Source: Marinoscillum pacificum (lineage in GTDB: Bacteria; Bacteroidota; Bacteroidia; Cytophagales; Cyclobacteriaceae). From it: DNA of 64,000 nucleotides. The stretch is taken from NCBI RefSeq assembly GCF_024714495.1, contig NZ_JAMZMJ010000004.1:310001-374000 (forward strand). Reading direction: 5' to 3'. This document shows positions 21,001 through 49,004 of this stretch, piece after piece. The position numbers and the translations under genes were made by a program. Position 1 is the stretch's first letter. Every line of letters begins with the position of its first letter. The notes under the pieces were generated by a model. That model was not told where the DNA came from, did not search any database, and saw only the letters and a program-made list of their open reading frames with translations.

Positions 21001-24000
21001 CTATGTCTGCGTCTTGTTTAAAATTTGAAGACCAAAGTCCAGGGTTCTCACTTACCAATAAAAACTCTGCTTTATTGCTGATTAAATAAGGTTCTGCCTC
21101 CGTTCCGGATCCTTCTATACATGCTGATAATACAGTTGCTATTACCTCTACTCTATCTGTACTGCATTGGCCATTAGTAGCCTCTGCCCAATAGGATGTG
21201 GTCTCATTAATTGATACTTCGAAGGTAGCTCCTGTACTTAATAGAGTTCCATCTGCTTCAGAATCATACCAACTAATCTCTCCTGTCGTACTTGTAGCCA
21301 CAAGTGTAAAACTTAACGATCCACCTGTTTCATCACATTGAGGCTCGGGATTAGAAACCGTAATTTCCGGCTGAGCCAAATTTTCCTGCCATGCCAGAAT
21401 TGGGAAGCCATTGTTAACACAGCCATTGTCCATCTGCCAGGTATTAGAGAAATCCCAGTTGGAGAATGAAGTCTGATCTTGCATTTCAGCAGTTGTGAGG
21501 CCAATACCTCCATCGCTAATGGTTAAACCACTTGTTTCAGTATTCCAGTAGGAACTTGAAACAGTCCCAGTAGAAAGTGATCCTATCAACCCTCCCAGAG
21601 TACCTGACCCGCTAACGTTCATTGTAGAATAAGACTTTTCTATATAACCTCCATTTGAGGCTACAAGTCCACCAAAGGCAGCTCCATCACCTATGAGAGT
21701 ACCGGAAGTATAACAATTATAAATTGACCCCAGATTATAATCTACCAAACCTCCAGCATGTCCATTGCCAGATGAAGGTTCTAAATTTATTGTACCAATT
21801 ACCGCGCAATTTCTAATTGTTGCTCCTTCTCCATTAGTGTTTACCAAACCTCCTGCCTCATAATAGCCATCAATGTCTACATCAACTAAATAGACATTAG
21901 CAATTAAAGAATTAGCAGTTTTTCCAAACATAGTATTTTGCATTCCTATGATCTTAAACCCATCACCATCATAGGTTCCTGAAAAAACCTCCTCATATCC
22001 ACCTATCCATCTCATAAATTGAGTCATTTCTATATCAGCAGACTGCACGAAATGTTTATCCCAGTCACCGCTATGTTCGCTCAAGAATATTAAATCTGCC
22101 TCAGTTGCTATAAGGAATGGATTCTCTTCATATCCATCGCCATAATTTCCTTCAGCGTCTGGACTGTATAAGTACTGTACCGTTACGGTGACCTCTTGTC
22201 TGGCAGAAGAGCAATCATCATTCGAAGCAGAGACCCAATAGGAGGTAACTCCATAATCAATACCTGTCGGCACGAAGGGACTTCCTGTTGATAGTGCCTC
22301 ACTTGCATCTTCCGAAGCAAACCAACTGATGGTTGATCCTTCATTAGCAGTAGTTACAAGAGAAACCTCTTCTGGAGTGTCAAAGGTGAATGCCGACTCT
22401 ACAGTAATAATTGGTATCTCTGGGTTTGCCTGCCATGCGAGAATAGGAAATCCATTATTCGCACACCCATTGTCCATCTGCCATGTATCTGTGAAATCCC
22501 AACCTGTGAAAGAGGCCTGATCCTGCATTTCAGAAGTGGTTAAGCCCGAGATACCTGAACCACCGCCAAGACCAACAGCATTTGTATGCCCACTTGTTTC
22601 CGTGTTCCAGAAGGCACTTGTAAAAGCGGTATACTCAACTTCTGCAATCATACCGCTTGCTGCTCCTTCATATTCCGATTCTACAAATCCCGCCGAAAAG
22701 GAGTTTGATACTTGCCCATCTAGAGCGTTACCAATAAATCCGCCAATAGTATAATTACCAGAAACATCACTTGTAGAATAACAGTTGATTATGGTTCTTG
22801 AATTAGCCCCTGCAAAACCGCCCAAGTGTTCATATGCTGAAACTGACCCTGTTACAAAACATCTACTAATAGTACCATTATTATAACCGACAAAACCTCC
22901 AGCATAATAGTGGCCATCTTTTATATTCACATTAACAAGGCCTAAATCTTGCACAGAACCACTGGAGTTAATGTTCCCAAAGAACCCAATATAGTCCTGG
23001 TCTGGCCGGTCTATGACAAGTCCGGTAATGGTATGTCCACTTCCATCATAGCTACCAGAAAAACTAATATCATCATTCCCAATTGGGCTAAATCCCAGGC
23101 CATCATTGTAAAAATCCCCACCTTCCTCAAAATCCGGAACGTCAAACTCCATATCAGCTGTCTGCTTAAAGTGTAAGGCCCATTCTGAGCTGTTCTCACT
23201 TAGGTCTTTTAAGTCTGCTTTGGTAGTTAATAGGAATGGGCTAGCTGCCGTACCAGCTCCACCAGAGTATTCAAATACTACGTCAGTTACAGTGATTGAC
23301 ACCACCAATGTAGTAATGTTACCACCGTCATCTTCCGCGATTACCTCTATTTCATAAACATTGTCGGCATTTGCATCAAGTGCCGTTTCGAAATCCGGAG
23401 CATCAGTGAAGCTGATCTGATTTTCGTTCATCAGACTGAACAAAGCTTCGTCACGATCAGTACCGAGACTAAACGTAACGGATGTTTCATTAGTCTCTGC
23501 CGTATAAGCATCTGCCATGCTATTTTCCGCGAAATTAATCGCAGAAGCAGAAGTAAATTCCGCTGCTGGATCTACTACATTAATGGTAATTGTCTCTGCA
23601 TCTGAGGTGAGCTCTCCATCACTTACAGTAAGCGTCAATGTATAGCTTGGAGTTACCTCTGAATCCAGACTGGTATTGTCAGCTACTGTGATCTCACCAG
23701 TAGTTCCATTGATCGCAAAAACACCATCACTATTACCAGCAGTTATTGTCCAGCTACTAAATGTTGTTTCTTCGTTCACATCAGTGACAAGAACCGTTCC
23801 TACGCTTGTATTATTGGCGGCATTTTCAGACACATCAAAACTCTGATTTGCTGTAATGACCGGAACTACATTTGGTGTACTATATTTAAATATTCTTACA
23901 TGGCCTGCATCGGCACCACCACCATCATTAATAGGGCTACCAGCTCCTACAATCGACCCATCTTCGGAAATAGCCAAGGCTGTTCCAAAAACGTTGAACT

Positions 24001-25117
24001 CTGCTTCACCTTCCAGGCTAACACCTACTTTTTCCCAATTAGTGCTATATGACCAAATTTCCGCACGGCCGTTTTGATTATCATTTGTTACATACCCTGG
24101 TGCTCCAATAATGACATGACTCCCATCACCAGAAATATCTAAGTAGTTACCAAATTGATCCAGCTCAAGTGATGATTTAATCGTATCACCCAGTACTTCC
24201 CAGCTCGTGCTATACTCGTATACAATCACTAACCCAAAATAAGGGCCAGGTGAGAAGATCAGATCTTGCGGTGCACCAACCCCCAAGCGAGTTCCATCAT
24301 TCGATAAGCTAACTGATGTTCCTAAATTAAAATAATCTTTACCTACAAATTCATCAGATACACTCCAGACACCTGTATTGCGATTAAAAATTCGAACCCT
24401 TCCTTCGTTCTCAAAACCAGTAGTATAAATTGGTGAACCAATAGCTACGATGGTATCTCCGTTTGCAACAGCCAAGCTGACCGACATACCACTTGTTTCA
24501 TAGTCGGTATCGCCATCCAAATCTGCTCCTACCTGCCCCCAGGCAGAAGTTTTCCATTTGTATACTCTGGAAGTCCCTGCAGCAGAAGCACTTCCATCAG
24601 CACCTGGCACTCCTATGGCTAATACATTTCCATCCGAAGAAAGACTTACTGATTGCCCAAAATTCTCCTGGGCAGCCTGAGCATTAATTGTAGATCCTTT
24701 CTGTAGCCAACCATTAGTCTCATCATATGTATAGATATTAACATATCCAGCTACAGAATTTGATCCAAATGTACCATCGGCTGTGCGAGCCCCAACTGCC
24801 AGGGTTGTTCCATCAGCACTTAAACTTACTGACGATCCAAATGAATCACCTGCCTGACTACCAGATAAGGTTGACCCTAGTTGTTCCCAGGAAGATCCAT
24901 TATATTGATACACTTTGACTAATCCCTGCAGGGAATTAGCACTAGCTGCACCTACTGCCACGATCGATCCATCTGTAGACATGGCCATGGCATTGCCAAG
25001 TCCATCGCCCATACTCCCATCAATATCAGAACCAAGCTGATTCCAGGCGGGTTGAGCTATAATAGCCATAGATACTAAGGAGAGTACTACAGCCAAATAA
25101 ATTTTTATTGACTTCAT
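18080..25117 (-). CDS. Giant modular T9SS-secreted surface protein (FG-GAP propeller, cadherin, GLUG modules)
   Basis: The protein has 2345 residues from the ATG at 25117, chosen because it opens directly with a signal peptide (YLAVVLSLVSMAIIAQ); the upstream in-frame ATG would add 41 unlikely residues. In order: an FG-GAP-type beta-propeller (about 25-410; repeats such as DGTTLAVGA and SLSNDGTRLGVGA), two cadherin-like domains (about 415-610), and four GLUG modules. Each module opens with a G-x-G-x-x-x-x-P-[FY] motif and closes with WDF..WQMD; Ig-like domains (SYWVSASNDDC) separate them. Two carboxypeptidase-regulatory-like domains (about 2060-2250) and a type A T9SS sorting domain (LSIYPNPATKFVNVQV to the end) complete the protein. 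It is a probable adhesin or matrix protein, exported and anchored by T9SS. A 56-bp element shared with the 34-49 kb operon lies upstream. Confidence 0.88.
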   Translation of the reverse strand: MKSIKIYLAVVLSLVSMAIIAQPAWNQLGSDIDGSMGDGLGNAMAMSTDGSIVAVGAASANSLQGLVKVYQYNGSSWEQLGSTLSGSQAGDSFGSSVSLSADGTTLAVGARTADGTFGSNSVAGYVNIYTYDETNGWLQKGSTINAQAAQENFGQSVSLSSDGNVLAIGVPGADGSASAAGTSRVYKWKTSAWGQVGADLDGDTDYETSGMSVSLAVANGDTIVAIGSPIYTTGFENEGRVRIFNRNTGVWSVSDEFVGKDYFNLGTSVSLSNDGTRLGVGAPQDLIFSPGPYFGLVIVYEYSTSWEVLGDTIKSSLELDQFGNYLDISGDGSHVIIGAPGYVTNDNQNGRAEIWSYSTNWEKVGVSLEGEAEFNVFGTALAISEDGSIVGAGSPINDGGGADAGHVRIFKYSTPNVVPVITANQSFDVSENAANNTSVGTVLVTDVNEETTFSSWTITAGNSDGVFAINGTTGEITVADNTSLDSEVTPSYTLTLTVSDGELTSDAETITINVVDPAAEFTSASAINFAENSMADAYTAETNETSVTFSLGTDRDEALFSLMNENQISFTDAPDFETALDANADNVYEIEVIAEDDGGNITTLVVSITVTDVVFEYSGGAGTAASPFLLTTKADLKDLSENSSEWALHFKQTADMEFDVPDFEEGGDFYNDGLGFSPIGNDDISFSGSYDGSGHTITGLVIDRPDQDYIGFFGNINSSGSVQDLGLVNVNIKDGHYYAGGFVGYNNGTISRCFVTGSVSAYEHLGGFAGANSRTIINCYSTSDVSGNYTIGGFIGNALDGQVSNSFSAGFVESEYEGAASGMIAEVEYTAFTSAFWNTETSGHTNAVGLGGGSGISGLTTSEMQDQASFTGWDFTDTWQMDNGCANNGFPILAWQANPEIPIITVESAFTFDTPEEVSLVTTANEGSTISWFASEDASEALSTGSPFVPTGIDYGVTSYWVSASNDDCSSARQEVTVTVQYLYSPDAEGNYGDGYEENPFLIATEADLIFLSEHSGDWDKHFVQSADIEMTQFMRWIGGYEEVFSGTYDGDGFKIIGMQNTMFGKTANSLIANVYLVDVDIDGYYEAGGLVNTNGEGATIRNCAVIGTINLEPSSGNGHAGGLVDYNLGSIYNCYTSGTLIGDGAAFGGLVASNGGYIEKSYSTMNVSGSGTLGGLIGSLSTGTVSSSYWNTETSGLTISDGGIGLTTAEMQDQTSFSNWDFSNTWQMDNGCVNNGFPILAWQENLAQPEITVSNPEPQCDETGGSLSFTLVATSTTGEISWYDSEADGTLLSTGATFEVSINETTSYWAEATNGQCSTDRVEVIATVLSACIEGSGTEAEPYLISNKAEFLLVSENPGLWSSNFKQDADIVFETSDFDSYVFQPVGSLDNPFTATYDGGGHTISGLKVDQTEGALSGMFGYVKNGVIKNLGLINAEVIGGSFAGGIVAVVEEATLDSVFYRGSVSADQAAGGLVGLGVGVSSISHSYFVGTVKSGIAAGGLASTAEGGSVSIHNSYARGTIEGTSFLAGLAIATTTVTNSYAAVQFIGSETTVYPISYNGTVVNSFWDVELSGVTESEVGEGLTTAEMKDQASFTDWDFTDIWQMDNGCGNGSPIFVWQENPQPPTLTMNQTEYVYTDPNDVALVATVGEEAVVRWYETSISEEVLFEGSPYAPALRPGTYTYWVAAVSGTCASERIEVTVDIDYEYGGGDGSAGNPYRISIKEDLQVLAQKSADWNKHFIQTADIVFEPADFQEGGDYYNNGYGFKQIGKFLGTYDGDRHKIANIEMYGNQSYSNGVFAWVIGDIMNLTLENITIMNASTTWIGGLAGYLGDEGVAASVKNCHVSGIIEHNNTSSWVGGIIGEAWTGTIHQSSSHVNIPNKSTAIGGIVGAITNSTVSECFNAGNLNPTASIESRSGGITAFITYDCKIENCYNKGNAAIGVFAVNNGSGNSVKNSFNIGQTPYGFGTNVAEFNTISISNSFWDTEASGTTDGGNAGGVGKSTADLKTLKTLIAAGWDFTGESTNGTGDIWQMDEETGYPIHAWSKEQDPIIYIEGSVVDENDAVFTAGEVRLRIDQNTDPEIITLSESGTFYAEILAAEYVVSVKPSAADTYYQTYLGNTVTSSASTKHSGNQSGQNIKMQKREVSNFLTGPNSLSGVAISSDLGGGRVVLGRILEGTPLVGVSVFLIRISDQQIMTEVITDDNGAFEIKGIPDGDYQLVVNIDGVPVNLAASTITFDEENSKLTVTALVSDEGVTLSVENVLGVEDQIKLSIYPNPATKFVNVQVSGEASVRIIDLKGTVITERTFIDEIELNVENLKESIYLMEIRNTDGVSVRKLIKK

Positions 25118-25291
25118 ATTTGTAGTTGAATTTAGGTTCTTGTCAAATGCTCTTTTGTGACAGAGCTTCTCGAAAAGGTCTAATGTTTTCAAGGTTGTCA
25201 AGAAATGAAATGGAACAATTTTGTAATCTTTCACTTTCATATATCAGGCGGATTTAATGTCTCGGAAATCTAGTGGAGAAGTAAGGTCATC

Positions 25292-25347
25292 ATCAAAAAA
25301 ATGTTGTGAACGACACGTTTTTGTATGAGTTTGACATAGCCATTCGA
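25292..25347 (-). promoter_or_regulatory. 56-bp element, copy 1 (upstream of the giant T9SS gene)
   Basis: Read on the - strand, this block matches 33873-33928 at 54 of 56 positions; blocks include CTATGTCAAACTCATACAAA and CGTGTCGTTCACAACA followed by seven T and GAT. It points at the gene starting at 25117 (175 bases away) and lies 136 bases before the divergent LytTR gene at 25483. The rest of the 365-base intergenic gap holds no gene; the 64-codon ORF across it is rejected. Confidence 0.8.
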
Positions 25348-25482
25348 CGAAACGGCATGTTAATTGGACTAAAATCTGGAGATAGAAAGTCTGACAGATG
25401 TAACGCTTATTATCATGATAAAAGGCTAACAGCTTCATAAATCACCATCACTTCACTAAATTTCCGAATTCATTTCAACCAC

Positions 25483-26172
25483 ATGAGAACCAAAGAGAGC
25501 TATCGAATACTGATTGTAGATGACGAAGCATCCATCGCTGAGATGTGTTCTTCTATGCTATCTGACCTGGGTTATGAAGTAGTCGGAATTGCTCATACTT
25601 ATGCATCAGCAATCTCACAAATGGAATCTCAGCAAATCGATTTGGTGATTCTGGATATTGATCTGAAGGAAGAAAAAAACGGCATTGACTTAGCGATTTA
25701 CATCAAAGAACACTTTGATCTTAAATTCCTGTTTCTCACTTCCTTTGCTGATATAGACACGGTTAAAAAAGCAGCCAAAACGGTCCCGGAAGCTTATCTT
25801 ATTAAGCCATTTACTGAAGAGGATTTATTCACTACGATTGAAGTTATTCGAAGCAAAAAAGAAATTGACTACACGATTCAAATTAACACCGGTATCGAAG
25901 TGATCAAAGTTGCTGCCAATGATGTGGCTCTGGTAAAATCAGACAATAACTACCTGGAAGTTTATGTGAACCAGAAGAAGCACCTTATTAGAAGCTCTCT
26001 AGAATCATTTTTGAAGGAAAACAACTATTCCAACTTTGTCAGAATTCACCGTTCATATGTGGTGAATTTGTTGAAGGTGAGCTCTTTTAGCAGACAACAC
26101 GTAATCGTAGGAGATATCAAATGCCCCATTTCCAGGTCTTACAAGCAAGAACTATTTCAGCGATTTGCTTAA
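25483..26172 (+). CDS. LytTR-family response regulator (copy 1)
   Basis: The protein has 229 residues. The receiver domain (8-125) has the acidic pocket D13/D14, phospho-acceptor D58 (VILDIDL), Thr/Ser at 86-87 (FLTSF) and Lys108 (LIKPF). The LytTR DNA-binding domain spans about 135-229 (VKSDNNYLEVYV, then FVRIHRSYVVNLLKV). It is the close relative of the regulator at 33019-33711. Its stop overlaps by 4 bases the stop of the convergent kinase gene 26169-29696, its likely partner. Predicted targets are its own divergent neighbour and genes carrying the 56-bp element. Confidence 0.92.
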   Translation: MRTKESYRILIVDDEASIAEMCSSMLSDLGYEVVGIAHTYASAISQMESQQIDLVILDIDLKEEKNGIDLAIYIKEHFDLKFLFLTSFADIDTVKKAAKTVPEAYLIKPFTEEDLFTTIEVIRSKKEIDYTIQINTGIEVIKVAANDVALVKSDNNYLEVYVNQKKHLIRSSLESFLKENNYSNFVRIHRSYVVNLLKVSSFSRQHVIVGDIKCPISRSYKQELFQRFA

Positions 26173-29100
26173 TCAAGCGGTAGTTTAATAGTAATGCTAG
26201 TACCTATTCCAGGTGTACTGTCTATGTTAATCTCACCTTTGTTCAAAAGCACAAAATCATGAGCCAGTTTCAAGCCTAAACCAGTGCCTTTTTCACCTTT
26301 GGTTCCTGTGGTTTGTTTTTTTTCTGTGATTTCGAAAATAGTTTCAAGTTTATCCTCCGTGATCCCGATTCCTGAATCTTTCACCTTTACATAGACGAAT
26401 TGTTCTTCAGCCGATGTTTGTACGGATACAGAGCCACCTTCGTAAGTAAATTTGAGTGCATTACTGATGAGGTTTCTAAGGACGATTTCCATACTTCCTT
26501 TGTCAATGTTCACCTGAAGGTCTTCCGAAATTGAGGCATTGTAAATCAGATCAATGTTCTTATCAATGGCCTGTGGTTGATATAATTCAACAATGTTTTC
26601 TACAATCTCATCAAGGTATTGAGATTCCAAAACCACTTTTTTACTATTAGAGTCTATCAACCCCCAGTCGAGCACATTGTCCAGCAATTCATTAAAGTTA
26701 TGATACAAGTTATCAAATTCAGAAAAAGCCTTACTCGTCTCTTCATCTTTAATAGCCAGCTTTCGCTTGATATTAAACACTGTAGCAAATAGTTTGGTGA
26801 GCGGTGAGCGAAGATCATGTCCTACTACCGAGTAAAATTTGCTCTTCAGGTCATTGAGCTTTTCTAATTCAAAAGCCTGAATCTCTATTTCTTCTTTTTG
26901 TTTCTTGAGATCAGCCGTACGACTGGCTACCGTATCTTCAAGCATCTTTTTCTGACGTAAGAGGCTTTGAGTACGCCAATAAGTGTAACTGTATCCAATT
27001 AAAATGATCAACGCTACATACAAGGAATAAGCCCACCAGGTTTGATACCAGGGTGGAAGTATGGAAAATTGTAGTGTAGCCTCTTCACTCCATAGTTGAC
27101 TTTTGCCTCTTGCTCGTACTCTAAAAGTATAATCCCCGGGTGGTATATTTCGATAGTCGACTTTGGAATCGACAATAGGGCTACTCCATTCATTTTCGAA
27201 TCCATCCAGAACAAAACTATATTCAAGGTCGAAAGGAGATTGCCAATCTATAGCGGTAAAATGGAATGTCAAGTGATTGTTTTCGGCAGTTAACTCCGCA
27301 TTAATTGGGTAGTTTTCAAACCGCTGAACACTGTCATAATGAATCCCAATGTCTTCATTTTTTTCTGACTTTTGATAATCAATCATCTTTCCGTTAATAT
27401 CCAACTGTCGTAAGAATACATTGGGTATATGCTGTGGCTTTTGATGAGTGTTTAGGTCAACCATTGTTAGGCTCTTACCACTACCCAGCCACAGCTGGTT
27501 TTTGTGATCCAGACAAATACTATTGGTTAGAAAATCAATTCCTTTAAGGCCATCCCCTTGTTGATAATAAATGATTTTGTACATCCCATCTGGGGACTTT
27601 GGAATAAACTCATTCAGTCCTTTTTCTGAGGTTGCCCAGATATGGTGGTTATGATCTTCCACAATAGACCAGTTGACATCTGAAGACAGGCCCTCCGAAG
27701 TAGTATACTGTATAAACTCTATTCCATCAAACCGAAACACTCCACTTCCTCGTGTTGCAATCCAAATGTTACCGCTATGATCCAATGTTAAATCAATAAT
27801 ATCACCAACATCAAAGCCTTCGTTGGCACTATATCTCGTGAAAACCTCTCCATTAAATTTGGTAAGGCCATTATCTGTCCCAAACCACAAATCACCTTTC
27901 TTGTCCTGAATTATAGCATTGACAATATCATCACTCAGTCCGTCCTCGGTAGTAAACTGAAGAAACCGCTCGCCATCAAACCACAAAACTCCCGCTCCAT
28001 CGGTACCTAACCAGAGACCTCCATGTTCATCTTCTTGAATAGCTTGTATGCTATTACTTGGGAGTCCATGACTTTCATTGTAATTAACAAAGTTCTCGCC
28101 ATCGAACTTGCTTAATCCACTGAAACTAGTTCCAAACCACAGATTGCCATGGCTATCCTCAATAATAGAAGCTATAGAATTACCCGCCAACCCATCTTTT
28201 TCTGTGAAGTGAATCAAAAGTTGACCATCATATTTATTAACCCCTCCACCGTCTGTACCAAACCATAGATTCCCATGGCGGTCTTCAGCAATGGCATATA
28301 CATAGCTATTGGATAACCCTTCCTCTTCACTAAGATGAGAAAAACTGTTAGGAGCCAAAACACTTACTCCTCCGCCATTGGTGCCAAACCAAAGCTTACC
28401 ACTGTTATCCACAAAAGAGGCATAAACATCTGCATACAAACCTTCTCTTTCCTGATAGGTAATAAAACGATCACCTGTATATTGATTAGCACCGCCTCCA
28501 TCTGTATTGAACCACAGCACTCCATTATCATCTTCTACAATCGATCTTACCACATCATGACTTAGTCCTTCTTGGGTAGTGTATTGCACAAAAGACTCAC
28601 CATCAAACCTATTGACTCCACCACCGTCCGTTCCAAACCATAAATTGCCGTTACTATCTTCAAAAATCGAGATCACCGAGCGGTGACTTAGCCCATTATT
28701 GACGGTGTACTGTTCAAACAATGTACCATCAAAACTGATCACCCCATTTTCTGTCCCCAACCATATGACACCATTGCGGTCTTCTAATAGAGCATTGACT
28801 GTTTCATCCAATAACCCTTCATTTGAGGTATAGTGCATAAAGGAACTCCCATCATATTTAGTCAGTCCTGCTAAACTTCCAAACCAGATATTCCCCTGAC
28901 TATCTTCGGTTATTGACTTAATCTCATCATTGAGCAAACCTGTTTCTTCGCTGTATCGAATAAATCGCTTGCCATCATACTTGATAATTCCTCCAAAAGT
29001 CCCAAACCAAAGGGTACCGTCAGAGGCCAGTAAAGAACACCATACGGTTAAAAAACCATCTTTCTGCGTATAGTGCGTAAAATTGACTCCATCATACCTA

Positions 29101-29696
29101 CTTACTCCTTCCAGGTGACCAAACCACAACGCACCATCTTTGTCTTCTATTATCGACAAAACATAAGAAGATGCCATTCCCTGATCTACATCTAAATACT
29201 GAATGTTACTAGTGGAACGATCTTTAAACCTTGGTCTAGAGCCAGGAGTACTTGGCATTGGAGGGAAATCCATATCAGCACCAACTAAAAGCATCCAGGA
29301 TCCTGTGGGTATTGTATCTCCAAGAGAGTTGATCACAAAATGAGTAGCAGGGTCTTCTACCGCCGTAATAAATGTGGATTTAAGCAGTGAATCACTATCT
29401 ATGATATGACGTGTAAGATGCTCTGGTATCTTATGAATATTGGGGTGAGCCTCTTTCTTACTTGACTCCTGCGGGGTTTGAATGCTATTGACTTTTGGAC
29501 TGGAAAGAACAGTACCGATGGGCTCTTTGCTAAGACTATCTTGCCTTGGGACTATAGAGAACCGATTTGGATATGGGTACTCCATATTTTCAGCAGGGAA
29601 GTCCACTGCCTTTTTCTGTTGACATGAACCAGCCAATAATAGTGCTAACAGGCCATTAATGAGAATAATATACAATGCCGACTGACTTATGCGCAA
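26169..29696 (-). CDS. Propeller-type histidine kinase (two-component regulator propellers, Y_Y_Y, HisKA, HATPase)
   Basis: The protein has 1175 residues. A lipoprotein-like signal (LLALLLAGSC, Cys25) is followed by about 14 propeller repeats of roughly 42 residues (SIFEDSNGNLWFGTDGGGVN type), enough for two seven-bladed propellers. Next come a Y_Y_Y domain (about 815-880), a transmembrane helix (about 886-908), a coiled coil, a HisKA domain with FYSVVGHDLRSPLTKL (His about 960) and HATPase_c ending with GTGLGLKLAHDFV. It lacks the receiver and AraC domains of classical hybrid HTCS proteins, so it must use a separate regulator, most simply the convergent LytTR protein. It senses an extracellular or periplasmic signal; the ligand is unknown. 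Confidence 0.9.
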   Translation of the reverse strand: MRISQSALYIILINGLLALLLAGSCQQKKAVDFPAENMEYPYPNRFSIVPRQDSLSKEPIGTVLSSPKVNSIQTPQESSKKEAHPNIHKIPEHLTRHIIDSDSLLKSTFITAVEDPATHFVINSLGDTIPTGSWMLLVGADMDFPPMPSTPGSRPRFKDRSTSNIQYLDVDQGMASSYVLSIIEDKDGALWFGHLEGVSRYDGVNFTHYTQKDGFLTVWCSLLASDGTLWFGTFGGIIKYDGKRFIRYSEETGLLNDEIKSITEDSQGNIWFGSLAGLTKYDGSSFMHYTSNEGLLDETVNALLEDRNGVIWLGTENGVISFDGTLFEQYTVNNGLSHRSVISIFEDSNGNLWFGTDGGGVNRFDGESFVQYTTQEGLSHDVVRSIVEDDNGVLWFNTDGGGANQYTGDRFITYQEREGLYADVYASFVDNSGKLWFGTNGGGVSVLAPNSFSHLSEEEGLSNSYVYAIAEDRHGNLWFGTDGGGVNKYDGQLLIHFTEKDGLAGNSIASIIEDSHGNLWFGTSFSGLSKFDGENFVNYNESHGLPSNSIQAIQEDEHGGLWLGTDGAGVLWFDGERFLQFTTEDGLSDDIVNAIIQDKKGDLWFGTDNGLTKFNGEVFTRYSANEGFDVGDIIDLTLDHSGNIWIATRGSGVFRFDGIEFIQYTTSEGLSSDVNWSIVEDHNHHIWATSEKGLNEFIPKSPDGMYKIIYYQQGDGLKGIDFLTNSICLDHKNQLWLGSGKSLTMVDLNTHQKPQHIPNVFLRQLDINGKMIDYQKSEKNEDIGIHYDSVQRFENYPINAELTAENNHLTFHFTAIDWQSPFDLEYSFVLDGFENEWSSPIVDSKVDYRNIPPGDYTFRVRARGKSQLWSEEATLQFSILPPWYQTWWAYSLYVALIILIGYSYTYWRTQSLLRQKKMLEDTVASRTADLKKQKEEIEIQAFELEKLNDLKSKFYSVVGHDLRSPLTKLFATVFNIKRKLAIKDEETSKAFSEFDNLYHNFNELLDNVLDWGLIDSNSKKVVLESQYLDEIVENIVELYQPQAIDKNIDLIYNASISEDLQVNIDKGSMEIVLRNLISNALKFTYEGGSVSVQTSAEEQFVYVKVKDSGIGITEDKLETIFEITEKKQTTGTKGEKGTGLGLKLAHDFVLLNKGEINIDSTPGIGTSITIKLPLD

Positions 29697-29881
29697 GATC
29701 GATGGTGGTTGTTGACGTGAACAAATATCTATAATTTCTCTTGTTCTTATTTAGATCAGGTCTAGTTCATTGACCATGAACAGCTGCTTGAGAATTGGTT
29801 TCAACCGATTTAGATAGTTAGTCATTATATTTACCCCGTCAAAAGACTGTTTTATAACTTTCAATATCACTTCCAACCCAC

Positions 29882-32800
29882 TTGACCCGATTGAAGTTAA
29901 TTACAGGAATTCTTCTCTGCGTTGGCCTACATTGCTCTGTCCAATCAACTCTGCAATGGAAAAAACTTCCAGAACCTTCTAAAACCAGAGCATTTGTAAG
30001 ACATGGAACCGCCAGTATTGACACCATTGCCTCTGCAAAACCTCCTACGAAAATTCAGACAGATTACCTGGGGTCACCGTTTCAGTTTAAGTGTGTAATC
30101 AAACCAAAACACATTCCCACAACCTATGAAAAGCACCCTCTTGAAAAAAGAGAACGAGTAGCCACTATTGGAGGCATGCTGTTCAAGGATCAATCTACTG
30201 CCAACATTAAGTATTTGGATAAAGCTCACGGCCTACCTAGTAATCAGGTATTAGCATTGGCCAAAGGTAGTGATGGACGCATGTATTTTGGTACAGAAGA
30301 GTCTTTAGTCATTTACAATGGTCAAGAACTAGAAATTTATAGTGGAGCTAAAGACCACCCATTCCACAACATCAGAAGCCTTTTTTTTGATCATCAGGAA
30401 CGCTTATGGATTAGTACCGATGCTTTTACTGGGTACATCCAGGATGGCCATCTATACCTTCCAGAATCTCAAATTTTTGGCCCTACTCATCTCAAAGGGT
30501 TCAATGAATGCAAAAAAACCGGAGAAGTTTTCATTTTCACTCGATACAACGGTCTTTTTGTCCTTAGAAATGACAGCCTCCTCCACTTCCGAGACCAGCT
30601 ACCAGTTTTAGCTGTAAGTGCCACCATCAGAGACTCAGAGAATCGGCTATGGTTGGTCTATAGTCACGATGGCATCTCATACATACAAAATGACAGCCTC
30701 TATCACTATGACAGACCTGGAGTTTTCAATACTCCACGGTCAGTATATGAATATGAACAGGAAATTTATTTTGGTCAGTTTACCGGGTATTTAATGAAGT
30801 TCCGCAATGATTCACTTTTTTCCGTCAAATGGGACAACACAGAGCAACATCGTATTTTCTACATAGAAGGCAACGAACATGGTTTATGGCTCGCCGATTA
30901 CAGTAAAGGAGTAGTGCTAATCAAGAATAACCAGGAAGCTTTACAAGTAACAGCACGTCAAGGATTAGTAAATAATGCATCTTATGCCATATTAAAAGAT
31001 GATTTTAACAACCTCTGGGTAGGAGATGCACTTGATGGTGTATCGCGTATAGATGAATACCTCTTTAGTAATAGCGACAAACCCATAGTTGGCTTGATAA
31101 AAAATGCCATATCGGATAGCGAAAACACCTGGTACCTGACCAATAGTGGCATATACAGAGAACACCAAGACCAACTGATTGCTTACAATGGAATCGGTAA
31201 ATATTGTCTAGATGGTCTCATAGAAAATGAAGATGATATTTGGTTATCTAATGCCGATCAAGGACTGACTCTTCTCCAGTCAAATGACATCACTTATTAT
31301 ACTATTAATGAAAACCTAAGTGAAGACTCCACCATTTACTTTATTCAAAAAGACAACTTAGGCAATATTTGGGGGCAAGATCTGGCTGATAGGTTGATTT
31401 GCTTTTCTGATGGTTACTTTCTGAACTACTCAAATACAGCAGATTTCAAAAACTACCGATTCAAATCATTGACAACTTCCGCTAGTGGGATCGTGCTTGC
31501 ACTAACAGTAGCTAATGGAGTTATTGCAATTAAAAATAATCAATACCAGCACATTAATGCCAATAACTTACTGTCAGGCAACTTGGTTGACTTTGTGTTT
31601 GAGGATTCTCAAGGTAGACAGTGGTTTTGTCAACCTGGTTTTATCGAAATGATTGATAAAACCGGTAATAAGGTAAAACTGGAAAACCCAACCCTTAAAA
31701 ATAATACAGTAAAAGACATCCTGGAAATAGGAGCCAATAGGTACTTATTGATGACAAAAAATGGTGTCATTTGGCTAGAAGGAGATCAGGATTATGAAGC
31801 TAAATTATACGGTAATGAGTATGGCATTAACGTATTGGACAATGAAAACCTAAACATTGATCATCATGGTGAAATCTTTCTCCTGGGAGGCAATCAGTTG
31901 ATGACATTTAATCCTGAATTTCGAAACCTGGAGCGCCACAACCCAAAACTTAGTCTCAATAGGCTGCTTATAAATGACAGTACCATTTCCAATCCACATG
32001 ATTTAGAAGTAGCACAACAGAACAACCTCAGATACATATTCAATGTCATCAACTGGGGTCGAAATGCTGCATTGTATTACAAACTAGAGCGCGAGGGACA
32101 ACCAAGTAGTGCCAAATGGAATACGCTTACAGGCACCAACATCCCATTTAATGAACTCACACATGGCCAATATGAACTGAGTGTATACGCCATGGATGGA
32201 AATCAACAGAGCAACATTTGGAAAACCCATTTCACCATCACACCCTATTGGTATCAAACCACCTGGTTCCTTCTATTTATTTTCTTGTCCTTCTCCGGAC
32301 TCATCATTGGGTATTTCTTATTTAAACAGCGGAAGACCATCCAAGACAAAAAGAAACTGGAAGCGCAGGTTGCGGAAAGAACCGAAGAGCTCGTATATGA
32401 AAAGGAGCGAGTATTAAGGCAGCTTGAGGAAAAGGAAGTACTTCGACAGGAAGTACACCACCGGGTAAAAAACAACTTAACATTCTTAAAGAGTTTACTC
32501 TTCTTACGATCGCGGGCATCCTCTAGTGAAGAAGTGAAAATCATACTAGATGAATGTCAGGCAAGAATTCAAACCATGGCCTTAGTCCATCAAAACTTAT
32601 ATGACGTTGATGATACTGTCGACATTAATTTCTCAAGCTTTATCAAAGAATTGTTCGTTGAGTTGCATACCCTGTTCGAAACCAACAAATCTGTTGGTAT
32701 CCAAATAGAGGCTGGCGATATCAAAATGGACATGAAGTCGTCGATTTTCATCGGTTTGATTTTCAATGAGTTGATCACCAACTCGTTCAAATATGCCTTT

Positions 32801-33022
32801 AGCTATATCGAAAAGCCCGTAATTTACGTACATGTATCAGAATCTGATTCCCAGACATTCCTCGAATATTGGGACAATGGGCAAGGACTTACTGAAGGAT
32901 TCGATATCACTAAAACGAAAGGGTTTGGCTTCAAAATAATGAATATCTTAGTGCAGCAGACAGATGCCACTTTAGAGTATAAAGGACAAAAATTCTTATT
33001 AACTATACCCAAAAACCGATGA
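29882..33022 (+). CDS. Propeller-type histidine kinase with HisKA_2 (HWE/PdtaS-like) transmitter
   Basis: The protein has 1046 residues. The N-terminal signal peptide (LKLITGILLCVGLHC) is followed by propeller repeats more diverged than in its neighbour kinase. Both share the region FKDQSTANIKYLDKAHGLPS / FKDRSTSNIQYLDVDQGM, so they are paralogues. A Y_Y_Y-like segment, a transmembrane helix (about 791-813), a coiled coil and HisKA_2 with EVHHRVKNNLTFLKSL (His 858/859) come next, then HATPase_c. The transmitter type differs from the other kinase. There is no in-frame ATG before the signal peptide; a TTG (29882 or 29891) must start it. The stop overlaps the next ATG by 4 bases, coupling it to the LytTR regulator. 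Confidence 0.88.
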   Translation: MTRLKLITGILLCVGLHCSVQSTLQWKKLPEPSKTRAFVRHGTASIDTIASAKPPTKIQTDYLGSPFQFKCVIKPKHIPTTYEKHPLEKRERVATIGGMLFKDQSTANIKYLDKAHGLPSNQVLALAKGSDGRMYFGTEESLVIYNGQELEIYSGAKDHPFHNIRSLFFDHQERLWISTDAFTGYIQDGHLYLPESQIFGPTHLKGFNECKKTGEVFIFTRYNGLFVLRNDSLLHFRDQLPVLAVSATIRDSENRLWLVYSHDGISYIQNDSLYHYDRPGVFNTPRSVYEYEQEIYFGQFTGYLMKFRNDSLFSVKWDNTEQHRIFYIEGNEHGLWLADYSKGVVLIKNNQEALQVTARQGLVNNASYAILKDDFNNLWVGDALDGVSRIDEYLFSNSDKPIVGLIKNAISDSENTWYLTNSGIYREHQDQLIAYNGIGKYCLDGLIENEDDIWLSNADQGLTLLQSNDITYYTINENLSEDSTIYFIQKDNLGNIWGQDLADRLICFSDGYFLNYSNTADFKNYRFKSLTTSASGIVLALTVANGVIAIKNNQYQHINANNLLSGNLVDFVFEDSQGRQWFCQPGFIEMIDKTGNKVKLENPTLKNNTVKDILEIGANRYLLMTKNGVIWLEGDQDYEAKLYGNEYGINVLDNENLNIDHHGEIFLLGGNQLMTFNPEFRNLERHNPKLSLNRLLINDSTISNPHDLEVAQQNNLRYIFNVINWGRNAALYYKLEREGQPSSAKWNTLTGTNIPFNELTHGQYELSVYAMDGNQQSNIWKTHFTITPYWYQTTWFLLFIFLSFSGLIIGYFLFKQRKTIQDKKKLEAQVAERTEELVYEKERVLRQLEEKEVLRQEVHHRVKNNLTFLKSLLFLRSRASSSEEVKIILDECQARIQTMALVHQNLYDVDDTVDINFSSFIKELFVELHTLFETNKSVGIQIEAGDIKMDMKSSIFIGLIFNELITNSFKYAFSYIEKPVIYVHVSESDSQTFLEYWDNGQGLTEGFDITKTKGFGFKIMNILVQQTDATLEYKGQKFLLTIPKNR

Positions 33023-33711
33023 GTTTCAATATTCTGATCGTCGAGGATGAGCTGATGATTGCAGAGATGATCAAAGAAATGCTCAGTGAATTGGATTACC
33101 AGGTGTTAGGTGTGGCCAAAAACTATAAAGAAGCTACTGCCAGCTTGGAATCTAAACGAGATGTTATTGACCTCATTGTATTAGACATAAATCTCAATGA
33201 TCATAAAAATGGAATAGATATAGGTTCTCTAATTAAAGAGAAATATCAAATTCCGTTTGTCTATTTAACGTCATATTCGGATCCACAAACTATACGTGCT
33301 GCAGCATCTACCGAACCTGCAGCATATCTATTGAAACCTTTTACTGTTGGGGATCTTCATGCCACAGTTGAAGTGATAAAAGCCAGAAAAGCTGTTTCCG
33401 CTAAATCAATTATGATCAAGGAAAACGATCTAAATGTCAAGTTAGAAGTAGCTGATATCTCTTATGTGAAATCGGACAATAACTACCTGGAAATTTTCAC
33501 ATCTCGTAAGAAGCATCTTACTCGAAATTCACTAGAGAAATTCCTGGAGGATGTTGAAGAATCCAACATTATCAGAGTGCACCGCTCATTCGCTATTAAC
33601 ATTTCCAAAATTCAAGCGGTAAATGGTCAGTATTTAATGATCGATGATCAAAAGATACCCATCTCCAGAAAGCATAAATCAGAACTGATGGATATGCTCG
33701 AACAAATCTGA
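33019..33711 (+). CDS. LytTR-family response regulator (copy 2)
   Basis: The protein has 230 residues. The receiver domain has E9/D10, phospho-acceptor D56 (LIVLDINL), Thr/Ser in YLTSY and Lys in LLKPF. The LytTR domain (about 133-230) carries VKSDNNYLEIFTSRKKHL and IIRVHRSFAINISKI, nearly the same recognition region as the regulator at 25483-26172, which predicts similar DNA targets. It is translated from the same message as the HisKA_2 kinase (ATGA overlap). The downstream 716-base gap leads to the T9SS operon and holds copy 2 of the 56-bp element. Confidence 0.92.
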   Translation: MSFNILIVEDELMIAEMIKEMLSELDYQVLGVAKNYKEATASLESKRDVIDLIVLDINLNDHKNGIDIGSLIKEKYQIPFVYLTSYSDPQTIRAAASTEPAAYLLKPFTVGDLHATVEVIKARKAVSAKSIMIKENDLNVKLEVADISYVKSDNNYLEIFTSRKKHLTRNSLEKFLEDVEESNIIRVHRSFAINISKIQAVNGQYLMIDDQKIPISRKHKSELMDMLEQI

Positions 33712-34427
33712 CCAACACCTGATAACCAACATCCCTTTTTTCCGTCCTATTTGGTTTTCAAGCAGTTGAAAAAACCAACCAACTGGCCAGCCTTAACCAA
33801 ACCGTTAGAAAGTATTCAGCAGTTATTTCTGGCGTTTTTTAAACTTTTTAGTCTGTAGAATACACTTATTCATCGAATCGCTATGTCAAACTCATACAAA
33901 ATCGTGTCGTTCACAACATTTTTTTGATTTTCAGTGACATCCGCACCAATTTTTCTCAATTAAATGCAATGCGCTTCGTCTAGTTGATAGGATTTTCAAG
34001 AAAATGGCAGTTGTCTAACACCAATCAAATCGATATGGTGATAGAAAGCTCAAATTAGAAAATCCCATTTCAACGAGAAAAAGTATGGACTGATCTAGCA
34101 AATCAATTTTGATCGGCCTTTAACCTGCATTTTAATAGATTAAATCGACCTGTACTGACCACTATTGATTGTTTAGTACTGATATAAAGTAAGACATATG
34201 ATGCCCGCAATGCACCGCCAAAGAACCACAATCAGTAGCCATTGTCTAATTAGACCTTGCGCCACACCGTATATCAACCAACATTCACCTTAGGATTCAA
34301 GTCCTAAATACAACCATCAAAACTGATAAGAATCCAGAGATAACAGTTATCAAAGGACGATTACAAAAACCTACGGATGCAAAGCATCCATCTTAAAAAT
34401 TTAATTCAAACAAGATCTTATATAAAG
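33712..34427. other. 716-base intergenic region before the T9SS surface operon
   Basis: No gene is visible here. It contains the 56-bp element (33873-33928) and, at 34290-34307, an inverted repeat TTAGGA-TTCAAG-TCCTAA, 120 bases before the start of the collar-domain gene. The region is AT-rich with several possible Bacteroidetes promoters but none clear enough to mark. Such a long leader suggests heavy regulation of the following operon. Confidence 0.6.
33873..33928 (+). promoter_or_regulatory. 56-bp element, copy 2 (upstream of the T9SS surface operon)
   Basis: This copy is identical to copy 1 (25292-25347, opposite strand) except at two positions. It points toward the collar-domain gene at 34428, 500 bases away. 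As the conservation is far above that of any flanking DNA, it should be a functional site. Likely roles are a LytTR operator with promoter (the run of T then GAT may include a TTTG -7 box) or a conserved leader. Confidence 0.8.
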
Positions 34428-35405
34428 ATGAAAAAAATCACGCTAACACTATTTGCTTTAACATTTATCTGCCAATTCGCCTTCAGTCAAATCTTAACAA
34501 AAGGCTTTTCTTTCCAAGGATATGCAATAGACGGAGATGATCGTGCTATTGCCTCCACAAACGTCACCGTAAAATTCACTGTATACAGTTCTTCTCAGAA
34601 TTATGCTGAAGAGCACGCCTTGACCACTGACCCATACGGTATATTTAGCGCTATCGTAGGCGAAGGCTCGAAACTGAGCGCTGAATCAAATCTAAATTTT
34701 GAGGAACTAAAATTTAACTATTATGACTTCAAACTAAAGGTTGAAGTAAAAAAGACATCTGGAGGAACATACGCTACCATCAGCGATAAAACCTTAAATG
34801 CAGTTCCTTATGCTCAATCTGCATCTAACGGTGTTCCGGTGGGTACCATTATGGCGTTTGCTGGACCTGCGACTAAAGTTCCAAACGGTTGGTTATTGTG
34901 CGATGGATCAACAATAAATTCCTCTACAGACATTGAATACGCACCATTGTTTGATGCAATTGGCACCGCTTGGGGAGGAACAGGAGCAGGCAGTTTCAAT
35001 ATTCCTGATCTTAGAGGACAGTTTTTAAGAGGTCTAAATGAAACCACTTCTGGCACAGATGCCAACCGTACTCTGGGTTCTTCTCAAGGAGGAGCTATCC
35101 AATCACATAGTCACACTGCATCGTCAGGCAATGCAGGTATTCATGATCATGGAATCGGAAAAACTGGAAATCAAAGGACCGGAAATGGAACAATCGGCGT
35201 AATGAGGATCGATGGAAGCTTTACAGCAAATTCTACGGATGATGATTTATCCTATGGAGCAGCCAACCTCGAAAAAATGTATGAATTCCCAACTGCAACG
35301 AATACCGCTCATGGCCAACACTCACATACTGTAACTGTGAATTCTACTGGTAGTTCTGAAACTCGTCCTGTCAACAAAGCTGTTAACTACATCATCAAAT
35401 ACTAA
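34428..35405 (+). CDS. Secreted phage-tail-collar-domain protein
   Basis: The protein has 325 residues from the ATG at 34428; the earlier ATG at 34377 would put 17 residues before a clear signal peptide (LTLFALTFICQFAFSQ). Residues about 22-130 are a beta-rich N-terminal domain. A tail-collar domain follows from about 137 (PVGTIMAFAGPATKVPNGWL, then LCDGS, FNIPDLRGQFLRG) with His-rich loops (IQSHSHTASS, HDHG, HGQHSHTV) and a closing RPVNKAVNYIIKY, as in phage short-tail-fibre tips that trimerise. It is the first gene of a tight five-gene operon with T9SS clients. It has no T9SS sorting domain of its own and probably forms a surface tip or adhesin accessory. Confidence 0.85.
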   Translation: MKKITLTLFALTFICQFAFSQILTKGFSFQGYAIDGDDRAIASTNVTVKFTVYSSSQNYAEEHALTTDPYGIFSAIVGEGSKLSAESNLNFEELKFNYYDFKLKVEVKKTSGGTYATISDKTLNAVPYAQSASNGVPVGTIMAFAGPATKVPNGWLLCDGSTINSSTDIEYAPLFDAIGTAWGGTGAGSFNIPDLRGQFLRGLNETTSGTDANRTLGSSQGGAIQSHSHTASSGNAGIHDHGIGKTGNQRTGNGTIGVMRIDGSFTANSTDDDLSYGAANLEKMYEFPTATNTAHGQHSHTVTVNSTGSSETRPVNKAVNYIIKY

Positions 35406-35417
35406 TCACTCCTGACT

Positions 35418-38400
35418 ATGAAGTTTCCGAAACTACTGTCAGGATGGAAACAGTTTTCCTTACTGGCATGTGTTGGGTGCTTAGTGCATCTGACCTCCTA
35501 TGCCCAAACGGTATCGCCACCACAGGCGATTGGTTATACCAGTGGTCAATCAGTTCAAGTGAATGACACCCTGAGTGTCTCCTATTTTGGTGGCTCTATT
35601 TTTAAAGACACCAGTAATACAGCCTTTATTGATGGAACCGTCATAACGGGCTTCCCGTATATTTTACGGTTTGCACCAAATGCCTTTGATGAAGATCTCT
35701 TTGTATCCAAAGGGTATTATCCCGAATATGTCCAGCTGAGCTGGGAACTGATTCGTTTTCAGGATGAAGTGAGCTATTTCAGGATCTACAGAAAATTACT
35801 GTCAGAAGCTGATACGGAATACACTCAAGTAGCTACCGTTTCTACAGATGCTACCTCCTGGCGTGATGAGTTCGCTGAAGCTGGAGTGATGTATGAATAC
35901 AAATTGAAAGCGGAAGGTCTTTACGCTTTTGAGGAGAACTTCAAAAACACACTCGAAGGTGTTGGATTCAGATTGCCATCAGGGAGTGTTTCCGGACGTG
36001 TAACCTTCGTAGACGAAGGCGGAGCACCAGTAGAAGGAGTAACCATTATCGCTGAAACAGATGATTCGTTCAACTCTACGAGTGTTTTATTAAATGGTAC
36101 AAGTTCATATCTAGGAATATCTCCTGAGACTGATCATGCTGATTTTAAATTCGAAGAGGAGTTTACCTTTCAGGCCTGGGTAAAACCAGATGCTACTGCT
36201 AACTATCCCGCTACGATTTTTCAGAAAGGAAATCAGTACAAAATCACTCATACAGCAAGTGGTCAGGTTACTTTTGCGGTAGAAAATGCGGCGAATTCCA
36301 TAACGCTGAATTTCACTGAGAAAGCTGGAGAGTTCTTCAATATTTCTGCTGTAAGAACTGCTGATGACTCCTTGAAACTCTATGTGATGTATGAGGATGA
36401 TGAAATCTTCAAAACTTCCAGTTTAATCGCAGGATTAACAACTACACCAAACAACAATGAAGTATTCATAGGGCAGTCTGAAGGCGGCAGCAACTTCTTC
36501 AAAGGACATCTAGATGAAATTCGCATCTGGAAAAAAGCCAGAACGGATGCTCAAATCAGAGTGAAAACCTTCCAAATCATCTCTGGGACGGAAACAGGAT
36601 TGTCTGCCTATTACAGATTGAACGAAGCCACTGGTGACTATTTTTATGATTTGTCCAGACAAGGGTTCAACTTTCATGAACAGCACGGCAGTGTGTTCAA
36701 CATCACCTGGTCTACGGAAGTACCTACAGCTACTCAGCTAGCAGTAAAAGGGATCACAGATTCGAATGGTAACTATTTAGTGTCCGGCATACCTTATACT
36801 TCTGATGGGTCACTATACACACTGACTCCTGCATTTGGTACGCACAAGTTCTCACCTACTCAGGCTAGTAGATTTATTGGCCCTGGATCCTCTACTTTCA
36901 GTGGTGTGAATTTCGTAGACAAATCCTCCTTTTCTGTCACAGGCTACGTTTTTTATTCCAATACCAAATTTCCGGTTAGTGGCGTTCAGATCGCCGTGGA
37001 TGGAGTAGCAGCAATTGCTTCTGGTGGATCACCAGTAGTAACTGATGGTAACGGCTTCTTCAGTTTAGAGGTACCAATAGGAGAACACCGTTTACAATTA
37101 GTAAAGAATGGTCACGTATTTGAAGGAGATGGTTATTTCCCATCACCAGATACCTTTTTTGATTTCCAAACTGACTTTAACATTGACCCTTCTTTCTTTA
37201 GAGATTCTACACTCATAAAAGTGATTGGGAAAGTGGTAGGTGGCCCAGTAGAAGGTGAAAAACCTACAGGTTTAGGACAATCTGTGAACAATATAGGTAA
37301 TGCCTCCTTTGCACTAGAGCCACAGAAACCATATGACTTGAAAGAACAAGCAGCTGATAGTTCTGGAGTATGGGCCATGCAATATGTACACGAAGGTGAT
37401 ACGGTAGAATATGAAACAACCGCTACTACTGGATATGAAATATTAAATACGTACAACTCTCGTAGGATCACCATTGAGGCAGATTCCAAAACTGGTGAGT
37501 TCACAGCATATCTCTTACCAGAACGATACAGCCTTAAGAGTTTAGAAGCAGGAGACTATATATCAAGTGATTTTGGAAATCTGGTTGGTGCAACCTGGGA
37601 CCTAACCAATGTATTCTCTCTTAAAACTGAAATAGATTCTGCTTATTTAGATCCTTCTGATCCGGAAGCCGGATATGCATATGATAGTATTCAGTATAAT
37701 TTCATGCAAAATTTAGTTCTTCGAGTAAACCCTACGGTTTCTGTTACATCCAAAGACTCATCTGTTCCTCGTTTCTGGGATGATGTAGTAACTGTAGGTG
37801 AATCAGAAATCAGCGTGGTAAGTGGTGATGACTATGGTGATTGGAATACCGCTGCGCCTATTTTCACTCAGCGCAAAAAGTATGAAGTTCTAGTTTCCGT
37901 ATTTGAAGAATATGTAAACGTAGACAATTCTAATGCCTCAGATCAGGTACCAGTAGTTGACGGAGAAGTTCAAATTCAAAACGCACTAGCCAATAAAAGC
38001 GCTAGAAGAACCTTCTCATTGGACGAAAACGGAGAAGTGCTCTATGATTTCTTAGGTGGTATTCCGAATACCGCGTCTGCTGGAGCTGATAGTTATATGA
38101 AGACATTCTCATTGACTGTATATAGCGGAAAAGGAGGAGCAATTACAACAGAATGGCTACCTGGGGGCTCAACCTTCAAAGGTTATGTGCTTGGGGGTAA
38201 ACCAGTTGGTAACAACTTCGTGACTTCTGGGCCAAATGTGGTTTCCATGATATTGCGTGATCCACATGGATCCAATAGTTACTCGTATTACGAAACGGGA
38301 ACAACAAATACCACTGAAATGTCGCTTGCTGCATCAAGTAAAGAAGCTTCTTCTTTAAAAGGGACTGTTCAAATGGGTGCCAAAGTAACCGTAAACACTG

Positions 38401-43724: not shown

Positions 43725-43735
43725 CCGACACCAAC

Positions 43736-47386: not shown

Positions 47387-47393
47387 CCCTCGC

Positions 47394-48491: not shown

Positions 48492-48494
48492 AGT

Positions 48495-49004
48495 ATGAGG
48501 CTAATAGCATTACTATTTTTCTGTGCTCCACTGATTTTATTTTCACAGGAGGCATCACAGGACAGCACATTGGTTTCTCAGAATGCCAATAAGATTGATG
48601 AACTGAAAAGAATGATTCGTTCGTCTGTGGAGAAAGAAGATGAATTGATATCGCTCAAAGGTGAACTTTCGGCAGCCAATGCCAGAATACTGGTATTGGA
48701 AAACACACTGGATAGCTTGTTGGAGAAGTTAAGACCACTGATGATCGAACCAACAGGTTCTTTCTACATCGTAGTTGAAGCACAAAAGAGTGAGGCTAGA
48801 GGTTCTCTGGCTTTGAATCAATTGAAAGAAGAGTTGAAGGACGACTTAAAACTCGTTCAATCCGAATCCGGAAATTGGTTTTTTGTCGTGCTCAGTGAAA
48901 GCCCGAAAGATGATCGATTAATTGATAAGCTCGATAAAACTAGAGGCATAGTTCCTGATGCCTGGTTTGTGGAACGAACCAAAACGCAGCAGATGAACAA
49001 CTAG
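48495..49004 (+). CDS. Exported coiled-coil protein with SPOR-like C-terminal domain
   Basis: The protein has 169 residues. It has a signal peptide (LLFFCAPLILFSQ), a coiled coil (about 35-85, LKGELSAANARILVLENTL) and a compact alpha/beta domain from about 90 (GSFYIVVEAQKSEARGSLAL, then SGNWFFVVLSESPKDD) that looks like the SPOR fold, which binds denuded peptidoglycan strands. It lies 3 bases after the PorP/SprF-like gene and before a strong terminator, so it is the last gene of the T9SS operon. It may tie the surface complex to the cell wall. Confidence 0.7.
   Translation: MRLIALLFFCAPLILFSQEASQDSTLVSQNANKIDELKRMIRSSVEKEDELISLKGELSAANARILVLENTLDSLLEKLRPLMIEPTGSFYIVVEAQKSEARGSLALNQLKEELKDDLKLVQSESGNWFFVVLSESPKDDRLIDKLDKTRGIVPDAWFVERTKTQQMNN

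Follow-up and report, generated by a model that had tools for sequence, protein, structure and literature searches.

What is the role of a 56-bp sequence that occurs twice, almost unchanged and in opposite orientations, beside genes for giant surface proteins? The question is raised by a 64-kb stretch of the Marinoscillum pacificum genome (hereafter G000; 6.4 Mb in 32 contigs), which we call the window and to which all coordinates given without a contig or locus label refer. One copy of the element points toward the gene for a 2345-residue type IX secretion system (T9SS) surface protein, the other lies 5' of a run of five open reading frames (ORFs) that includes surface-protein genes, and two sensor kinases and two LytTR response regulators (RR1 and RR2) are encoded between them. 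Sequence comparison makes it very likely that a LytTR response regulator has its operator in the 56-mer, joined there to the 5' half of a promoter for giant surface-protein genes.

The element, its half-sites and its predicted promoter frame

Copies 1 and 2 share 54 of their 56 positions; in the flanks, similarity drops to background. A repeat search recovers the pair as 60-nt inverted arms that are 95% complementary and 8517 nt apart; by random expectation, a 56-mer pair with two or fewer mismatches would occur in 64 kb at a frequency of ∼1e-19. Alignment and repeat search thus bear out the original prediction, made from the window alone, of two near-identical inverted copies in dissimilar flanks. 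That prediction was right about the element and, for the most part, its neighbours and overlooked the repeat structure within it, a distant third copy, and the associated -33 and -7 boxes. The features are as follows.

25292-25347, minus strand: copy 1 (operator plus -33 box), oriented toward the 2345-residue T9SS gene, in the divergent gap with RR1
25326-25335, minus strand: copy 1 half-site 1, GTCAAACTCA, conserved in relatives
25305-25314, minus strand: copy 1 half-site 2, GTCGTTCACA, at a 21-bp period
25294-25297, minus strand: putative -33 box TTTG of copy 1, offset 38-41
25265-25272, minus strand: putative -7 box TAGATTTC of copy 1 (TAnnTTTG, 5/6), with a predicted transcription start at ∼25260
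33873-33928, plus strand: copy 2, 3' of RR2 and 5' of the five-ORF surface run
33885-33894, plus strand: copy 2 half-site 1, GTCAAACTCA
33906-33915, plus strand: copy 2 half-site 2, GTCGTTCACA
33923-33926, plus strand: putative -33 box TTTG of copy 2, offset 38-41
33948-33955, plus strand: weak -7-like sequence AATTTTTC of copy 2 (4/6), spaced as in copy 1 and below the 5-of-6 threshold
Contig C22 of G000, 421782-421826 (L007:9782-9830): copy 3, 91% identity over 45 bp

In LytTR sites, two repeats of 9-11 nt, direct or inverse, flank a spacer of 11-13 nt; Escherichia coli YpdB recognizes two direct copies of GGCATTTCAT, which the printed probe sets 11 nt apart (PMC4847170). The same geometry is found in the element: at the two main sites of Marinoscillum furvescens DSM 4134 (G001), and at the site of an Ekhidna metagenome-assembled genome (MAG; G263), half-site 2 is identical to half-site 1, giving the perfect direct repeat GTCAAACTCA-N11-GTCAAACTCA with a 21-bp period. 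Under the -33 rule, the TTTG at offset 38-41 of copies 1 and 2 would be the -33 box.

The consensus of the Bacteroidota -7 box is TAnnTTTG (PMC9723704). Matches to at least five of its six defined positions were sought downstream of the modelled stretch at 16 sites and compared with 3000 dinucleotide shuffles; the copy 1 box had been spotted before this test was run, and the sites in loci L184, L155 and L119 and a second L168 site (the last found later, by eye) stood outside it. Nine of the 16 sites carry a -7 box, at offset 62 in seven and 63 in two, which none of the 3000 shuffles reached. After thinning of close pairs, the count is 6/13 (0/3000 shuffles), with 4/13 at a single exact offset (7/3000); for close-family sites only, it is 4/11 (17/3000), with 3/11 at a single exact offset (44/3000). 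Mean flank identity is 31%. The -7 phasing places the element just upstream of a predicted promoter core, with copies 2 and 3 of G000 below threshold.

Given the direct-repeat geometry and the phased -7 box, the element is probably where a LytTR dimer docks, immediately 5' of the -33 box. A dimer of RR1 and/or RR2 would occupy the two 10-bp half-sites, whose 21-bp period corresponds to about two helical turns. Half-site 2 lies directly 5' of the TTTG and, measured from the first base of half-site 1, the -7 box stands at 62-63 bp. From the spacing of the boxes, the bound regulator would lie at about -75 to -44, a usual position for an activator, where it would aid RNA polymerase in starting transcription. 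The product from copy 1 would be the giant T9SS surface protein, and that from copy 2 the collar/LamG/cadherin/PorP-SprF run. Binding, activation rather than repression, and use by both regulators are what we infer from features that can be read directly in the DNA, namely the copies, their geometry, the -7 phasing, the linkage and the conservation. The original proposal that the element is the common operator or promoter of the two LytTR regulators is supported as to operator and promoter, very probably for the adjacent LytTR regulators, by the repeat geometry, the phased -7 box and the linkage to LytTR loci and surface genes described below; its sharing by both, and a single regulon spanning 18-49 kb, are the more tentative parts of that proposal.

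Occurrence in the genome and in relatives

A site model run over G000 returned the three copies at E 1.1e-10 or better and, across the whole 6.4 Mb, no further match better than E 0.33. An exact-pattern scan of genome contigs gave zero matches. With three copies only, the element is not a dispersed repeat or miniature inverted-repeat transposable element (MITE), for which many copies unrelated to gene function would be expected. In place of many sites without a regulated gene there are three, one of which lacks an adjacent surface gene.

For footprinting, we gathered the relatives' loci that encode the nearest LytTR homologues and scanned them with the element core (21 relatives' stretches, nine and then twelve, plus the window and L007); most of the second batch of 12 held no convincing site. 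The element was found 5' of large surface-protein genes in G001 (two sites), G005 and G032, at loci that hold an RR1 or RR2 orthologue. It lies likewise near histidine kinase (HK)/LytTR orthologues and upstream of large surface-protein genes in two genomes outside the model-building set, G207 and G263, the latter absent from the first model. G001 and G004 each hold one diverged site, situated 5' of a third HK/LytTR system that is a sister of these.

A sequence-only model built from nine sites (R2) was then run over 344 genomes of the family. It gave 11 matches at E < 1e-5, in seven genomes, the next best being 3.8e-4. Nine of these strong matches are training sites, and those in G207 and G263 are independent. 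Ten of the 11, including both independent ones, have an HK/LytTR system of this kind within ∼10 kb; the eleventh is copy 3. In G263, ∼40 bp separate the site from the beginning of a gene for an RR1-type regulator; the G207 site is ∼105 bp from the start of a kinase gene paired with an RR2-type regulator. With the cut for the RR1/RR2 subfamily placed at a gap in the match list (E ≤ 1e-57), seven of the 344 genomes encode such proteins, and a strong site is present in six of those seven. The exception is G363, where a 3-kb contig shows just the second half-site and part of the spacer, 3' of the regulator gene. Among the 339 genomes left when the five training genomes are set aside, two have a strong motif, three have the subfamily and two have both (Fisher P 5e-5). 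Within the genus of G207, the motif occurs in 2/10 genomes, the same two that hold the subfamily, and G002 and G003, which belong to the window's genus and lack the subfamily, gave no R2 match at E 0.01. The search of the remaining genome and of related genomes that had been proposed with the original prediction therefore found three sites in G000 and recurrence near LytTR loci in relatives.

Targets with Big_12, FG-GAP, GLUG, Ig_7, LamG or S74 domains follow 8/11 strong sites; in G263, the element heads an S74/LamG run. Por_Secre_tail is present in targets of G000 (copy 1), G001, G005 and G032, and the others lack it or are cut by the end of a stretch or contig.

A search of 80 named LytTR loci (1.25 Mb) yielded matches in two distant relatives, the Marinilabiliales MAGs L165 and L168, at E 4.8e-5, 4.1e-4 and 5.0e-4. 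These lie directly 5' of Reg_prop HK-LytTR genes and, in L165, also 5' of the gene after the regulator; L168 has a similar second site, seen by eye only, before an FG-GAP protein gene. Their position directly 5' of the systems' own HK-LytTR genes suggests autoregulation there, and the Marinilabiliales sites as a whole suggest an older origin of the arrangement. Matches in Kordia (L155) and Flavobacterium jejuense (L184), at E 0.02-0.03, are too weak to count. The family survey also returned 19 weak R2 matches (E 4e-4 to 0.01). In the surroundings of 13 of these 19, the match overlaps or abuts unrelated ORFs and none stands beside an RR1/RR2-type regulator; near the weak match in L111, a distant homologue (25% identity) lies ∼3 kb away.

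Several observations weigh against a LytTR operator fused to a promoter of surface-protein genes. The half-sites in G000 agree with each other at only 6/10 positions. Five of the nine -7 matches come from sites outside the close family, copy 2 has a -7 box of 4/6 only and a predicted leader of >400 nt, and copy 3 has neither a surface gene nor a -7 box at threshold. At the G004 site the next gene encodes a 1130-residue protein that lacks Pfam matches, and kinase genes come after the third G001 site; with copy 3 counted too, a surface gene is supported at 8/11 strong sites only. The systems in L119 (which is G363), L149 and L150 keep only part of the element, and in L149 a PaaA_PaaC phenylacetate-catabolism gene follows instead of a surface-protein gene. 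Finally, a broader model of 17 sites (R3; L184 included, L155 not), run over 395 genomes of the phylum and 390 of the order, gave beyond G000 and G001 only 13 weak matches (E 2e-4 to 0.003). All 13 overlap or abut unrelated ORFs, and no regulator of the RR1/RR2 family lies within ∼1.5 kb on each side (less for one); R3 has little power for sites that have diverged, as even the third G001 site scored only E 5e-4.

The three loci with a partial element belong to a related LytTR group that carries TACAAAT-N4-GTCAAACTCAACAT just 3' of the regulator gene (L119:965-996, L149:10708-10734, L150:3869-3899).

Neighbouring genes and the third copy

The genes around copies 1 and 2 are listed below, with domains assigned by Pfam.

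18080-25117, minus strand: target 1, the 2345-residue T9SS surface protein (FG-GAP, GLUG, Ig_7, cadherin, Por_Secre_tail), with its ATG at 25117
25483-26172, plus strand: RR1, Response_reg plus LytTR response regulator, in a clade with G001 and G263
26169-29696, minus strand: HK1, Reg_prop/Y_Y_Y/HATPase_c sensor kinase, convergent with RR1, an order that is the same in G001 and G263
29882-33022, plus strand: HK2, Reg_prop plus HisKA_2 sensor kinase, whose end overlaps the beginning of RR2
33019-33711, plus strand: RR2, Response_reg plus LytTR response regulator, with relatives in G001, G005, G032 and G207
34377-49004, plus strand: target 2, the five-ORF run encoding a tail-collar protein, a LamG giant, a cadherin/CHU_C protein, PorP/SprF and a 169-residue protein

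These neighbours are largely those originally described, with the Por_Secre_tail giant, the two LytTR regulators and the five-ORF run all in place; the Por_Secre_tail match of the LamG giant, at 25.3 bits, falls below the Pfam cut-off of 27. The 169-residue protein that ends the run has zero Pfam matches. The predicted leader of >400 nt that separates copy 2 from the first gene of the run spans 33960-34428. That first gene encodes a phage tail-collar domain in the window (34377-35405) and an endosialidase-chaperone (S74) in G263 (L099:1573-3675), and a LamG protein comes next in both, so that tail-fibre-like genes head these surface-protein operons. Within the giant T9SS gene, there is an internal direct repeat of 122 nt (21381-21502 vs 22425-22546, 79%).

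RR1 and RR2 both carry a LytTR core of the FhRhHRS type, and their LytTR domains share 41% identity. A 44-nt stretch with 80% DNA identity (RR1 25920-25963 vs RR2 33453-33496) encodes the conserved SDNNYLE part of the domain. In a PDB sequence search with RR2, the matches at the top of the table were to the receiver domain and uninformative on DNA contacts. G000 encodes six homologous regulators at E ≤ 1e-30; two of the three sites are at RR1 and RR2, and the third is at none of the six.

That third site, copy 3, has a methyltransferase gene on one side and an RNase H gene on the other (Pfam). The corresponding interval of G001 and G004, defined by flanking orthologues of 55-60% (methyltransferase) and 83-91% (RNase H) identity to those at copy 3, is occupied by the sister HK/LytTR system together with a diverged operator of that system. 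The first half of copy 3 resembles the third-system sites of G001 and G004, and its second half-site is identical to that of copies 1 and 2. Because relatives keep a LytTR system at this place and G000 is without it, copy 3 is probably the orphan operator of a lost LytTR system.

Candidate readers and comparison with known systems

A stronger form of the operator-promoter interpretation holds that RR1 and RR2 both read both copies, with two Reg_prop kinases feeding one regulon, a serious possibility that we place just short of an even chance. The RR1 clade (G000, G001, G263; support 100/98) and the RR2 clade (89/92) are separate, yet the operators resemble each other by genome: in 40 positions, copies 1 and 2 differ by one mismatch, the two main G001 sites by none, and sites of G000 from those of G001 by 6-7. 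Half-site 2 reads GTCGTTCACA at copies 1 and 2 and GTCAAACTCA at both main G001 sites, and the mixture in copy 3 of a third-system-like first half with the half-site 2 of copies 1 and 2 points the same way. Such within-genome likeness would follow from a common set of readers, but recent promoter copying or gene conversion would also produce it. The modest identity of the two LytTR domains speaks against joint reading, as does the finding of both systems in only two genomes, with moderate support for the RR2 clade; the copy 2 target and that of the second G001 site, each with LamG domains, show no BLAST match to one another at E 1e-5. The element might instead be read by one regulator alone, the other having a different site and the second copy having arisen by duplication of a promoter to another target. 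In favour of this tentative alternative count the divergence of RR1 from RR2 and the genomes with a single system, which pair one element with one regulator; however, the lone regulator is of the RR2 type in G005, G032 and G207 and of the RR1 type in G263, and since each type is found alone beside the element, each is probably able to read it. With similar reserve, one may picture two anciently split Reg_prop kinase/LytTR systems in one genome that use a single operator code, held constant at their targets and drifting as a set between species, whose sensors would jointly gate alternative giant adhesins and into which the orphan operator has been partly drawn.

The inverted arrangement of copies 1 and 2 around four regulatory genes would also fit a mobile or recombination element, either a small dispersed repeat or inverted sites that flip the 8.5-kb kinase segment. 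We reject both forms as very improbable on copy number, the shared orientation of the two main G001 copies, the retention of the element in relatives at promoters whose -7 box is phased with it, and gene content, as the intervening genes are two kinases and two regulators with no recombinase among them. Equally improbable is a structured RNA leader common to the two transcripts, for which the >400 nt between copy 2 and its run would leave space. Rfam gave zero matches at gathering score in 24800-34500, the element lies 5' of the predicted -7 box and would not be transcribed, and, judged by eye rather than by a covariation count, it is half-site letters and not paired bases that vary between genomes; this candidate was rejected as well.

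The operator-promoter interpretation has counterparts among characterized LytTR systems. AgrA of Staphylococcus aureus and VirR of Clostridium perfringens act at promoters of secreted factors. Both are LytTR regulators with the FhRhHRS core (PMC4227749), as here, although the organisms and the promoter type differ. A likeness in geometry is offered by the operator of E. coli YpdA/YpdB at yhjX, a direct repeat of 10-bp half-sites for a LytTR regulator whose probe has the same 10 + 11 bp arrangement (PMC4847170), and half-sites such as GGCATTCACC of G004 resemble the YpdB repeat GGCATTTCAT. Unlike YpdA/YpdB, the present systems belong to another phylum, their kinases are of the Reg_prop/Y_Y_Y and not the LytS type, their targets are T9SS giants and not a transporter, and the half-sites in G000 have diverged from each other. 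The -7-like box at fixed spacing 3' of the element matches the Bacteroidota sigma-A promoter (-7 TAnnTTTG; PMC9723704), which here, in contrast to a plain sigma-A promoter, is coupled to a two-site regulator operator. On sequence evidence, the element is thus probably a fresh example of an already known type of switch, the LytTR operator-promoter.

The Bacteroidota loci examined repeatedly pair LytTR regulators with propeller-type sensor kinases. In the open-access literature on LytTR with Bacteroidota, Flavobacterium or type IX secretion (subscription journals lay outside this scope), no title among those listed reports a LytTR binding site in the phylum. The predicted site, with its half-sites, spacing and -33/-7 frame, offers a directly testable target and would connect LytTR regulators to giant T9SS adhesins. 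It also presents, as a natural case, a pair of paralogous two-component systems in which the operators seem to evolve in concert.

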